This document shows positions 13,202 through 16,642 of a DNA stretch of 35,123 bases, piece after piece (positions within the stretch are counted from its first letter, which is position 1; the number at the start of each line of letters is the position of its first letter). The notes beneath the pieces were generated by a model that saw nothing but the letters and a program-made list of their open reading frames with translations, was not told where the DNA came from and did no database searches. The DNA is from a bacterium (GTDB lineage: Archaea; Thermoproteota; Nitrososphaeria; Nitrososphaerales; Gagatemarchaeaceae), in contig DAIDAO010000036.1 in NCBI GenBank assembly GCA_027310575.1, positions 1 to 35,123 of the forward strand. The letters run 5' to 3'. A program made the translations under genes and the position numbers.

Positions 13202-14797
13202 TTGCAGCAGGCGGATATCATCGGCAGGGGCACCTGGCTCGACAAGGTGGCCCACGAGACGATCCAGCGCGAGAAGAAGCTGGGGAGGAAGGTGTCGCTT
13301 GTCAGGGTCGAGAGCGGCCTGGGGGCGTCAGGCCTCCCTCACATCGGCAGCGTGGGGGACGCGATAAGGAGCTACGGCGTGAAGCTGGCCCTTGAGACGC
13401 TCGGCTACAAGTCGGAGCTGATCGCCTATTCAGACGACTTCGACGGCCTGCGGAAGGTCCCGGCGGGGTTCCCTTCCTGGCTCAAGGACTACGTCTCCCA
13501 CCCCGTCTCGAGGATCCCCGACCCGTTCGACTGCCACCGCTCGTACGCTGAGCACGTCGGCTCGCTCCTGAGGGAGTCCCTCGACAGGCTCGGCATAGAA
13601 TACAGGTTCCAGAGCGGATCCGACGCCTACGCCTCGGGCCTCCTGAACGACCAGATACGGAAGATACTCTCCCATTCGAAGTCGATAGGGAAGAAGATCA
13701 ACGAGCTCGTGGGCCAGTCGAAGTACGAGGAGTCCCTCCCGTACACCCCTGTCTGCAAGAACTGCGACAGGATCTACGTCACACAGGCCAAGTCGTTCGA
13801 CCCGAAGAAGGACACGGTCCACTACGTCTGCGAGGGGACCAAGCTCGGGGAGAAGTTCGTCAAGGGGTGCGGCCACGAGGGGGACGCGAAGATATCGGAG
13901 GGGAACGGGAAGCTGATGTGGAAGGTCGAGTTCGCTGCGCGCTGGGCCGCGTTCGACATCAGGTTCGAGGCCTATGGCAAGGAGCTCACAGACTCAGTGA
14001 AGATCAACGACTGGGTGGCGGAGCACGTGCTCGGATACCCCCCTCCCTACCACGCGAGGTACGAGCTCTTCCAGGACAAGTCGGGGAGGAAGATATCGAA
14101 GTCGGTCGGGAACCTGGTCACGCCTGTCGAGTGGCTGGAGTTCGCGTCCCCTGAGAGCCTCAGGCTGCTGATGTACAAGCGGATAATCGGCGCGAGGAGC
14201 GTCTCCCTCGACGACATACCGGTCTACATGGACGACTTCGACGACCTCGAAGAGTACTACTTCTCCAACAGGCGGGACCCGAACCGGATGAAGGACGCCA
14301 GGCAGAGGGGGCTCTACGAGTACACGACGCTGCTTAACCCGCCGAAGGCGAAGCCGGCGCACGTCCCCTACAGGCTCCTCGCCCAGCTCGCGTCCGTGGC
14401 CCCCGAGGGGGCTGCGGAGGAGTTCGTGCTGAAGCGGCTCGCCACCTACGGAATGGCGACGGCACAGGCGGAGGGCCTGCCGAGGAGGATAGAATGGGCA
14501 GCCAGATGGTCGACGCGGGGAGGGAAGCAGGCCATCCCGGCCCCCCAGCTCGGCCCCTCGGCGAAGAAGGCGGTCGAAGAGTTCGCGAAGGCGATCCTGG
14601 CCGCGCAGGACGCGGATGGGATACAGAACGCAGCCTTCGACGCGGCGAAGAAGAACGGCCTGAAGCCTGGGGAGTTCTTCCCCTCGGTCTACGCCATCCT
14701 GCTCGGGTCCGACCGCGGTCCGCGGCTCGGTCCGTACGTCATAGACGCGGGGCAGAAGGCGGTCAGTAAGGCCCTCCTCGACGCAGTGGCGGGATGA
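13202..14797 (+). CDS. lysS: Lysyl-tRNA synthetase, class I
   Basis: Class I LysRS, 531 aa, charging tRNA-Lys; this class is typical of archaea and some bacteria. The HIGH-like motif PHIGS is at about residue 46, and the KMSKS equivalent KISKS at about 297. Between them are Cys pairs near CKNCDR and later CGH, a zinc-binding insertion. The TTG start at 13202 is the first possible start after an in-frame TGA at 13184, and a TATA-like AAGCTAAGTA lies about 28 nt upstream, so leaderless. The stop overlaps the UDG start (ATGA). Confidence 0.97.
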   Translation: MQQADIIGRGTWLDKVAHETIQREKKLGRKVSLVRVESGLGASGLPHIGSVGDAIRSYGVKLALETLGYKSELIAYSDDFDGLRKVPAGFPSWLKDYVSHPVSRIPDPFDCHRSYAEHVGSLLRESLDRLGIEYRFQSGSDAYASGLLNDQIRKILSHSKSIGKKINELVGQSKYEESLPYTPVCKNCDRIYVTQAKSFDPKKDTVHYVCEGTKLGEKFVKGCGHEGDAKISEGNGKLMWKVEFAARWAAFDIRFEAYGKELTDSVKINDWVAEHVLGYPPPYHARYELFQDKSGRKISKSVGNLVTPVEWLEFASPESLRLLMYKRIIGARSVSLDDIPVYMDDFDDLEEYYFSNRRDPNRMKDARQRGLYEYTTLLNPPKAKPAHVPYRLLAQLASVAPEGAAEEFVLKRLATYGMATAQAEGLPRRIEWAARWSTRGGKQAIPAPQLGPSAKKAVEEFAKAILAAQDADGIQNAAFDAAKKNGLKPGEFFPSVYAILLGSDRGPRLGPYVIDAGQKAVSKALLDAVAG

Positions 14798-15504
14798 CCC
14801 CCCGCCGATTCGCTTCGATCGGGGCGCTCAACAGCCGCGTAGTCGCATGCAGGCTCTGCCCGAGGCTCGTCAGGTACAGGGAGAGCGTCAAGCCGCGCGC
14901 CTCCTTCGCAGGCGAGGAGTACTGGCGCAGGCCAGTGCCCGGGTTCGGCGACCTGGGCGGCAGGCTGCTCGTGATAGGCCTGAGCCCGGCTGCCCATGGC
15001 GGCAACAGGACCGGCAGGGTCTTCACCGGAGACTCTTCTGGCAGGTTCCTGGTCAGGGCGCTCTACTCTGCCGGCTTCGCCAACCAGCCCGTCTCCGAGT
15101 CGAGAGGGGACGGACTGGTCTATTCCGACTGCTACGTGACGGCCGCGGTGAAGTGCGCGCCGCCCTCGGACAGGCCGACCCCCACGGAGTTCGCGAACTG
15201 CTCGCAGTACCTCGACGGCGAGATCGCCCTCATGCCCGACCTCGAAGCCGTCCTGGCGCTCGGCGCCCTGGCGTTCGGAGCCTACGTCGGCCACCTGCGC
15301 AGAAGGGGGATTGGCGTCAGAGGGCTGAAGTTCGCCCACGGGGCCGCATACCGGGTCAGCGGATTCCCGGCTCTCTACGCGTGCTACCACCCCAGCCCCC
15401 GAAACACCAACACCGGCGTCCTGACCCAGGGGATGCTCGTCGGGGTGCTCCGGAGAATCAGGTCAGACCTCGGAGCGGGCACCCGCCCCTCAAAGCATAA
15501 CTAG
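14794..15504 (+). CDS. Uracil-DNA glycosylase, family 5 (UDGb)
   Basis: Base-excision repair enzyme of 236 aa that removes uracil, and in this family often other deaminated bases. The active-site motif GLSPAAHGGNRTGRVFTGD (about 65-83) is the family 5 form, lacking the polar catalytic residue of other UDG families. The second motif HPSPRNTNTG is near residue 196. Cys19 and Cys22, plus later Cys residues, are the expected [4Fe-4S] ligands. ATG overlaps the lysS stop by 4 bp. The GC-rich C-terminus ends 20 bp before the tRNA-like locus. Confidence 0.94.
   Translation: MTPRRFASIGALNSRVVACRLCPRLVRYRESVKPRASFAGEEYWRRPVPGFGDLGGRLLVIGLSPAAHGGNRTGRVFTGDSSGRFLVRALYSAGFANQPVSESRGDGLVYSDCYVTAAVKCAPPSDRPTPTEFANCSQYLDGEIALMPDLEAVLALGALAFGAYVGHLRRRGIGVRGLKFAHGAAYRVSGFPALYACYHPSPRNTNTGVLTQGMLVGVLRRIRSDLGAGTRPSKHN
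15491..15504 (+). promoter_or_regulatory. TATA-like box before first tRNA 5' copy
   Basis: CAAAGCATAACTAG is centred about 27 nt before GGGCCCG at 15525, the spacing of an archaeal stable-RNA promoter. It overlaps the end of the UDG gene. Support is position and A/T content only. Confidence 0.4.
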
Positions 15505-15524
15505 ACTGACATTGGCGCAGGGCT

Positions 15525-15556
15525 GGGCCCGTAGCCTGGTCCTCCAAACAGTTTCG
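15525..15556 (+). other. Partial tRNA 5' copy with anticodon-like arm
   Basis: GGGCCCGTAGCCT at 15525 matches the acceptor and D-stem start of the downstream tRNA-like copy (GGGCCCGTTGCCT at 16537) in 12 of 13 positions. It lacks a D-stem 3' strand: it passes directly into TGGTC and CTCCAAA. CTGGTC (15536-15541) can pair with GACCAG (16607-16612), CTC with GAG (16598-16600), and CAGTTTCG (15549-15556) with CGGAGCTG (16590-16597). This leaves 4-nt and 6-nt bulges on opposite strands, a relaxed bulge-helix-bulge. Splicing there would give an anticodon loop CTCCAAC with anticodon CCA, but without a D-arm. Confidence 0.5.
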
Positions 15557-15626
15557 GAGACGTCTGGGCACAACTTTGTTCATGACTCACTGCAGCTTAT
15601 CTTGGAAGCGTTCTAATCCAGGTCGT

Positions 15627-16511
15627 ATGTCGAAGGCTGACTGGGCACCGCCTAGATTCCTTGATGGGTCAGATCCATCATGGCCGCTGGAGAGACTTAG
15701 AGCTCTCGCTTACATCGTGGGAGTAGTTCTGAAAGGAGACGGCTCCGTCTACAAAGTCAAGCGGGTTAACAGGAAAGGGGAACCGGCAGGCTACAACGGC
15801 GAGGTTGCGCTGCGCGTAAGTGCTCCCGAGTTCGCTCGCTATTTCTGTCGCCGCTGCGCTGTAATGCTAGGCCGTCGCCCCACGAAGGTCCAAGGCCCAT
15901 ACTCTGACCATTGCTACGTTGCCAAGTTTCGAGCCATCGTATTTTATCGGTGGTGGAGTTCAATCCGGGCTTCCCAAATCAAGAGAATCGCGCGAACCTT
16001 TCCGCACGAGTACCTAAAGGGAAGGTTCGATAGCGAGGCGGGAGTTGGGAGCTATTGTGTCTACATGTTCGGGGCCGCAGATCACAGATGGGTACTGGCT
16101 CTCGACAATCAGCTGTGCAGACTGATTGGCATGAGAACTGGTCCGATTCTGCCTTACGGGAAAGCAGGAGCTAAGAGCTACATCTACGGCCGGGAGGTAA
16201 TATCAAAGGTTCAGAAGCTTCGATTCACCGTGAACTCGACTGACTTCATTAAGAGGCTAGGTCGCCTCGCGGTGGACACCCGAAATCGCAAGTTACACGA
16301 CATGGTCAAAGGGAGGAGATGGACGCCTTGGAGCGCAGCCATTAGAAGAAAGGCGATGTCCCTTGTTCGAGATGGGTTGTCTCCGGCCGATGTTTCGACG
16401 GAGATTAAACGGCACCTCGGTGTGCATGTTCCGCCGATGACGATATACTACTGGGGGAAAGGGACGAGGTCCTGGGCGGGATATTCAGCAACGATTCGCC
16501 CCAATAGTTAA
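15627..16511 (+). CDS. LAGLIDADG homing endonuclease with C-terminal HTH
   Basis: A two-motif LAGLIDADG endonuclease of 294 aa, acting as a monomer. Motif 1 is LAYIVGVVLKGDGS and motif 2 is YLKGRFDSEAGV, about 100 residues later; both end in the expected acidic residue. After the catalytic core, residues from about 245 form a helix-turn-helix (SLVRDGLSPADVSTEIKRHL), probably extra DNA-binding specificity. ATG at 15627 follows AGGTCGT; ATG at 15582 would add 15 residues. Codon use and GC are clearly lower than in the neighbours, a sign of transfer. The gene lies between two copies of a tRNA 5' end, so it is likely borne by an archaeal intron or a tRNA-targeting mobile element. Confidence 0.88.
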   Translation: MSKADWAPPRFLDGSDPSWPLERLRALAYIVGVVLKGDGSVYKVKRVNRKGEPAGYNGEVALRVSAPEFARYFCRRCAVMLGRRPTKVQGPYSDHCYVAKFRAIVFYRWWSSIRASQIKRIARTFPHEYLKGRFDSEAGVGSYCVYMFGAADHRWVLALDNQLCRLIGMRTGPILPYGKAGAKSYIYGREVISKVQKLRFTVNSTDFIKRLGRLAVDTRNRKLHDMVKGRRWTPWSAAIRRKAMSLVRDGLSPADVSTEIKRHLGVHVPPMTIYYWGKGTRSWAGYSATIRPNS

Positions 16512-16513
16512 AA
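16503..16513 (+). promoter_or_regulatory. TATA-like box before second tRNA copy
   Basis: AATAGTTAAAA, overlapping the end of the endonuclease gene, is centred about 28 nt before GGGCCCG at 16537. It could drive the downstream tRNA-like copy independently. Position and base composition are the only support. Confidence 0.4.
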
Positions 16514-16536
16514 CGCATGACAGGCGGTGCCCGCTT

Positions 16537-16642
16537 GGGCCCGTTGCCTAGCACGGATCAGGGCGCCAAGCGAACCGCGCGTAGGCCTGCGGAGCTGGAG
16601 ATCAACGACCAGAGGTCGAGGGTTCAAATCCCTCCGGGCCCG
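16537..16642 (+). tRNA. tRNA-like gene, anticodon arm unresolved
   Basis: The acceptor stem GGGCCCG/CGGGCCC (16537-16543 with 16635-16641), the D-arm GCCT...GGGC (16546-16564), the variable AGGTC and a perfect T-arm GAGGG-TTCAAAT-CCCTC (16618-16634) are all clear, with G as discriminator. The 47 nt between D-arm and variable loop should be 17. Removing about 30 nt does not give a canonical 5-bp stem and 7-nt loop; the best local stem is only CTGG/CCAG with 10 nt between. The anticodon is therefore unassigned. D-arm style and G73 would suit Arg; the alternative pairing with the upstream copy would read CCA. It may be a split, intron-bearing or broken gene. Confidence 0.6.

Follow-up and report, generated by a model that had tools for sequence, protein, structure and literature searches.

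The tRNA-Arg(GCG) locus in a 35,123-nucleotide stretch of archaeal DNA (the window, which here always means the whole stretch; contig C1 of a 1.58 Mb genome in 61 contigs) carries a free-standing LAGLIDADG gene between a displaced tRNA 5' end and an intact tRNA gene. The arrangement is real, and its simple annotation is an intact two-intron tRNA-Arg with a free-standing LAGLIDADG gene; as to how it arose, we consider it probable, at roughly two chances in three, that both the old tRNA end and its promoter were displaced by a free-standing homing element which provided replacements for them. The gene order is lysS (class I), uracil-DNA glycosylase (UDG), the displaced tRNA 5' end (copy A), the endonuclease gene, the intact tRNA (copy B) and, on the opposite strand, an ORF labelled histidine-kinase-like from reading the sequence by eye. 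The closest relatives of the lysS gene are in Thaumarchaeota/Nitrososphaerales metagenome genomes (best segment up to 81% identical). The features of the locus are as follows:

13202-14797: lysS (Pfam tRNA-synt_1f, E 2.1e-109), which together with the UDG gene anchors the synteny
14794-15504, plus strand: UDG gene, the upstream neighbour (Pfam UDG, E 8e-26)
15496-15503, plus strand: CATAACTA, an orphan TATA-like tRNA promoter box, the only copy in the window (0.04 expected)
15525-15537, plus strand: copy A, what is left of the former tRNA-Arg 5' end, nt 1-13 (13/13 identical to the family consensus)
15538-15626, plus strand: perhaps the remainder of the old tRNA in eroded form, which cannot be recognised with certainty (weak alignment to the mature tRNA)
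15627-16511, plus strand: LAGLIDADG homing endonuclease gene, 294 aa (profile, fold and motif aspartates)
16507-16513, plus strand: GTTAAAA, which overlaps the stop codon of the endonuclease gene and is probably the new promoter box of the intact tRNA (assigned by position only)
16537-16642, plus strand: copy B, the complete gene for tRNA-Arg(GCG), interrupted by two short introns (ARAGORN on the spliced form; syntenic homologs)
16569-16584, plus strand: intron 1, 16 nt, at position 29/30 (strict bulge-helix-bulge)
16601-16614, plus strand: intron 2, 14 nt, 3' of the anticodon arm in the variable arm (placed by comparison with relatives)

Neither ARAGORN nor Rfam at gathering scores finds a tRNA in the raw window, and ARAGORN makes no call on unspliced copy B. 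After removal of 16569-16584 and 16601-16614 the remaining 76 nt are called tRNA-Arg(gcg) by ARAGORN, so that the gene is hidden from a search of the raw window because it carries introns, as its syntenic relatives show. The first-pass annotation saw no canonical tRNA in any single collinear copy, which is wrong once the introns are removed, and its idea of a split tRNA is ruled out, since copy B by itself gives the cloverleaf and the mature tRNA maps to 16537-16642 with short introns. Intron 1 has a bulge-helix-bulge motif with a 4-bp core, a 4-bp outer helix and a 3-bp inner helix, which is the top motif match in the gene, and its position is shared with four family genomes (G052, G085, G154 and G044). 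For intron 2 there is only a relaxed motif, absent from the listing of the strict bulge-helix-bulge scan; its place is the same at four other loci (L032, L044, L080 and L081), and the exact cut may lie up to 2 nt further left. Copy B thus shows what is expected of an archaeal intron-bearing tRNA gene, a cloverleaf after splicing (ARAGORN) and a strict motif for intron 1, and the best explanation is an intact tRNA-Arg(GCG) spliced twice by ordinary archaeal tRNA splicing. A comparison with relatives, which had been proposed from the sequence, bears this out: the same mature tRNA is present there, either intron-free (L034, L035, L036, L042, L048 and L059; among the genomes, G160 has this form) or with introns at the same places, and other relatives have various short introns. 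Such introns were considered as a signature of the endonuclease and rejected as such, because endonuclease-free relatives have introns at the same positions and the endonuclease-bearing genome G109 does not have the intron at 29/30. A check for another copy of the isoacceptor had also been proposed, and no second GCG-Arg was seen among the readable ones of the 30 Rfam tRNA places in the genome, the anticodons of which were read by eye (CCG, TCG, CCT and TCT are the other readable Arg anticodons); the tRNA-Arg(GCG) gene is therefore probably essential.

The displaced 5' end is recognised from both its sequence and its position. Copy A matches the family consensus in 13/13 bases and copy B in 12/13, and the two are alike in 12 of 13 bases, as had been noted before; equally in line with that earlier description, the gene between them has a lower GC content (55% and 54% in the 500-base blocks of 15501-16500 vs 68% and 64% in the flanking blocks) and there is a single tRNA 3' half. 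The ATAACTA of the orphan box starts 28 nt before copy A in the window and 29 nt before the corresponding remnant in G052, and it begins 29 nt before the intact tRNA-Arg(GCG) in the endonuclease-free Arg loci of G103, G094, G010 and G121. CATAACTA is also found once each in the G052 and G109 loci, 5' of the endonuclease gene, and thus in all three endonuclease-bearing Arg loci. At 30 nt upstream of the intact tRNA the sequence is GTTAAAA in the window, GTTAATA in G052 and TTTAATA in G109, the last of which is also present in G136, a genome without the endonuclease gene; judging by their position, these boxes would be promoters. It is very unlikely that copy A is a chance match in GC-rich DNA, with the endonuclease gene merely lying upstream of an ordinary tRNA. 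With two mismatches allowed, 1.84 matches to GGGCCCGTAGCCT are expected in the window, and shuffled versions of the upstream stretch score as high as copy A in 6 of 1000 cases, but GGGCCCGTAGCCT occurs exactly once and without mismatch (0 expected, 100 shuffles), begins at tRNA nt 1 and follows the single CATAACTA in 35 kb at the stated 28 nt, nearly the 29 nt seen in intact relatives, and G052 shows the same pattern.

Beyond its first 13 nt copy A has little to identify it. The alignment of 15538-15650 to nt 14-76 of the mature tRNA has a score reached by 7/500 shuffles and by 48/1000 pieces of the window, and so the likeness to a tRNA is too weak to uphold the anticodon-like arm described for copy A in the first-pass annotation. 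For the same reason we do not claim that copy A is a complete pseudogene interrupted by a D-loop intron, as reading by eye had seemed to suggest. The tails of the remnants in G052 and G044 do no better against the tRNA (147/500 and 183/500 shuffles as good).

Three options had been put forward from the sequence, of which a mobile element bringing a replacement tRNA 5' half fits best, because the old box and 5' end stand where the tRNA of the relatives starts, and the intact tRNA has another box. A decaying gene describes copy A only. The third option, in which the endonuclease gene lies inside one large intron, with copy A as the start of the tRNA, copy B as its continuation and a duplicate of the exon within the intron, can draw on the position of copy A at the old promoter and on its end near the D-loop site of short introns in some relatives, but we regard it as extremely improbable. 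A bulge-helix-bulge scan of 15520-15590 vs 16500-16580 gave 98 four-base cores, of which two are in register and have almost no flanking helix, and no good in-register motif joins copy A to copy B, the best motif being equalled or beaten by 224/300 shuffles; moreover copy B alone is a complete tRNA, and the endonuclease gene of G103 has the whole intact tRNA to one side of it. In the preferred reading, the homing element, a free-standing LAGLIDADG gene would have inserted at the 5' end of the probably essential tRNA-Arg(GCG) gene, pushing upstream the old promoter together with the beginning of the old tRNA, both of which would be eroding there (copy A). Besides the endonuclease gene, the incoming DNA would have brought a new promoter and a new 5' part of the tRNA, fused to the old 3' part, by which the host would have kept one working tRNA, and the enzyme would most likely cut endonuclease-free tRNA alleles and spread by intronless homing. 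Both homing as the cause of the insertion and the extent of copy B that is new are what we infer from the locus.

The insert has one large ORF on the same strand, the LAGLIDADG gene, and apart from this a 65-aa ORF is listed on its minus strand; an integrase gene adjoining the tRNA, as expected for an integrase-type element, is not among the listed ORFs of the insert. The window protein by itself has no match in Pfam, PHROGs or NCBIfam, but a profile of 29 relatives matches I-DmoI (E 4.9e-13), and 27/29 aligned members match LAGLIDADG_3 at E 0.01 or better. With the alignment of 29 relatives AlphaFold2 gave a model with pLDDT 87.9 (with three sequences the model was poor, pLDDT 50.9), and this predicted model matches I-DmoI in Foldseek (E 4.4e-8) and both PI-PfuI (Z 16.3, 188 residues, 3.1 A) and I-DmoI (Z 15.7, 174 residues, 3.2 A) in VIA-align. 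There are two LAGLIDADG motifs, each with an acidic residue, and both motif aspartates (D38 and D135) are kept; G37, D38, G132 and D135 are invariant in the 29 aligned sequences and L130 is nearly so. The reading frame is open, and the profile and the predicted model together identify the product as a LAGLIDADG protein with an I-DmoI-like fold, which presumably cleaves the tRNA gene at a specific site. The I-DmoI type of archaeal LAGLIDADG endonucleases are thus the nearest solved relatives by profile and among the nearest by fold; I-DmoI is titled intron-encoded, whereas the window gene lies outside any recognisable intron and its product has extra C-terminal helices, which look helix-turn-helix-like in the AlphaFold2 model.

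We searched 46 genomes of the family for the endonuclease. The profile matches in 18/46, and four of these have a close match (E < 1e-140): the genome of the window (G000), G052, G109 and G103. All four close members adjoin a tRNA, three of them 5' of tRNA-Arg(GCG), at a distance of 28 nt in the window, 55 nt in G052 and 70 nt in G109, and one 3' of tRNA-Val(GAC), and a recognisable tRNA piece is present on the far side of the endonuclease gene in 3/4. The endonucleases of the three Arg loci have diverged to ~37-43% identity. The G052 homolog (L089/L080), which has one in-frame TGA at the position of a tryptophan codon in the window, is probably decaying, and the G109 locus has the endonuclease, in an open frame, and the orphan box but no recognisable tRNA remnant (721/1000 shuffles as good). 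G103 is the mirror image of the window (L082 1430-2500, minus strand), with an intact tRNA-Val(GAC), the close endonuclease homolog and then a piece of a tRNA 3' end in which the T-stem is perfect and the terminus reads CCGGCCCA. This piece matches the tRNA-Val(GAC) 3' ends of G077 and G025/G044 in 27/31 bases vs 21/31 for the intact tRNA of G103 itself, as if the 3' part of the intact tRNA had been replaced; the G103 genus consists of one genome, and which of its two tRNA-Val 3' ends is the native one is unsure. At Val(GAC), none of the 46 family genomes besides G103 was found to have the close endonuclease; of the 34 genomes with a match, the loci beside the HMG-CoA reductase gene were read in 30, and a distant endonuclease stands at the Val(GAC) locus of G106. 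The tRNA-Val(GAC) genes beside HMG-CoA reductase (L159-L188) have up to three short introns, the positions of which vary across the family, and form a rich natural series for intron gain and loss.

More distant LAGLIDADG genes of the family also seem to be associated with tRNAs: a complete tRNA lies at most 200 nt from the ORF in 12/26 loci with a profile match (L088-L113), several of them tRNA-Cys-like and on the opposite strand. No general rule emerged that a tRNA-adjacent endonuclease has a tRNA piece beyond it, and outside the close subfamily the best remnant was at chance level (46-200/200 shuffles); this 26-locus scan missed the G103 piece, which was recognised by its T-arm (the scan gave 18/200 for another stretch), and left out the G052 remnant, as the in-frame stop shifted the ORF limits. 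Among viral contigs 43 pattern matches were obtained, none of which was confirmed, and a phylum-wide search of 398 genomes gave only distant relatives besides the genome of the window.

As an alternative to the homing element, the tRNA-Arg(GCG) locus may have been repeatedly duplicated or invaded by various elements, either of the integrase type or by plain duplication, with the endonuclease as a chance passenger, a reading to which we give a modest chance. We compared the locus in the 29 of 46 genomes in which tRNA-Arg(GCG) was readable (24 with a first pattern, the genome of the window, and G166, G081, G118 and G133 with a second pattern run over 21 genomes), and in 27 of these the upstream sequence, up to 1500 nt, was scored for another tRNA-Arg 5' piece; in the two unscored genomes (G072 and G066) a 3-mismatch scan showed no second copy. 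Four genomes had high scores (G091 23.0, G044 17.0, G052 13.5 and G000 13.0, vs 7.0-10.0 in the other 23), which were reached by 0, 0, 3 and 6 per 1000 shuffles, respectively, vs 721 for G109. A clear remnant was therefore present at 2/3 endonuclease-bearing Arg loci vs 2/24 without the endonuclease (hypergeometric probability calculated by hand ~0.05), a small contrast which is suggestive.

The two remnant-bearing loci without a close endonuclease have other cargo. In G091 (L044 6633-8050) a decayed, near full-length tRNA-Arg is followed by an RHH/PIN pair (VapBC-like, a label from reading the sequence by eye), a tRNA 3' scrap and the intact tRNA-Arg(GCG), while in G044 (L136 117-1560) a decayed tRNA-Arg 5' part after the UDG gene is followed by a ~1.2 kb insert with a gene on the other strand, secreted-protein-like by eye, and by an intact tRNA-Arg(GCG) with three introns, one of them long and located in the D-loop. 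Separately, G163 (L134/L140) has a second tRNA-Arg(GCG) 439 nt downstream of the first, beside a run of N, which may be a scaffolding artefact. Since the displaced copies in G091 and G044 accompany other cargo, the endonuclease may not be the cause of the displacement, and the locus may collect insertions of several kinds, with the endonuclease as one guest among others; a published case with the same layout and another ORF (PMC3293823) points the same way. Against a mere passenger stand the association of the close endonuclease subfamily with tRNAs in 4/4 cases, and never elsewhere, and its recurrence at tRNA-Arg(GCG) in three genomes with proteins that are only ~37-43% identical.

The published case is the tRNA-Thr(GGU) of Caldiarchaeum subterraneum, in which a 5' fragment identical to nt 1-27 and an intact two-intron tRNA are separated by an insertion of 1,868 bp, whose 813-bp ORF lies on the same strand; tRNA nt 1-27 and an intron come from the insertion, and the empty allele is present in the same population (PMC3293823). 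The layout with a 5' tRNA fragment at the old upstream flank, a same-strand ORF and an intact two-intron tRNA is thus common to both. The insert in the window is ~1.0 kb and has the LAGLIDADG gene, whereas the 1,868-bp Caldiarchaeum insertion has ORF 'b', which was called a putative recombinase, the authors suggesting one of the plasmid type (PMC3293823). We took G215 as the Caldiarchaeum genome, as its tRNA-Thr(CGU) is at the published place, and found nine matches to the ORF 'b' family, one of which, a 270-aa ORF, fits the 813 bp. A 288-aa paralog (L207) at the location given in that paper, taken from its coordinates to be b4, has no LAGLIDADG or recombinase match and does not resemble the window protein (BLASTP E 0.18). 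ORF 'b' as a LAGLIDADG gene was therefore rejected on the basis of this 288-aa member, and the window and Caldiarchaeum share the layout and differ in the enzyme.

Fungal mitochondrial mobile ORFs (mORFs, for example in Allomyces atp6 and in Glomus atp6 and cox2) replace gene ends and leave the native end displaced (PMC3630166), and may serve as a functional parallel, by analogy: in both, an endonuclease gene would enter a gene and bring a replacement end, leaving the native end on the far side. The mORFs concern the C-termini of protein genes in mitochondria, whereas the window has a tRNA gene in an archaeon and mostly a 5' end. The matches that would mark a foreign end of the mORF type (13/13 for copy A vs 12/13 for copy B, and 27/31 vs 21/31 in G103) come from pieces too short for a tree. 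Intronless homing is known from phage T4, where SegB lies between tRNA-Arg and tRNA-Ile (PMC2988022), and there too a free-standing homing endonuclease stands beside tRNA genes without an intron or intein. SegB is of the GIY-YIG type and targets the phage tRNA intergenic region, and a displaced tRNA end is not described for it in the accessible text (PMC2988022). No report of an archaeal LAGLIDADG gene with a displaced tRNA end was found in the literature on homing endonucleases and tRNA genes, a search with most subscription papers outside its coverage.

Why archaeal tRNA genes come to have introns at unusual positions is a question of long standing. For tRNA-Arg(GCG) a comparison is possible over 29 genomes that differ in the presence of the endonuclease, of introns and of displaced old copies, and the locus in the window offers a concrete enzyme and target for testing. 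For the tRNA-Thr case of Caldiarchaeum it suggests homing by an endonuclease as an alternative to the recombinase model, and it is a possible natural parallel to gene-drive designs which pair a cutter with a spare copy. A more speculative reading, which we think rather unlikely, is that of a natural 'cleave and rescue' element, the phrase being from the gene-drive literature: a selfish LAGLIDADG endonuclease would cut an essential single-copy tRNA gene and carry a cut-resistant replacement end, with short introns inside the recognition site presumably providing the resistance. If this is true, repeated attack by such elements would be the driving force behind the unusual acquisition of non-canonical introns by the tRNA genes of these archaea.
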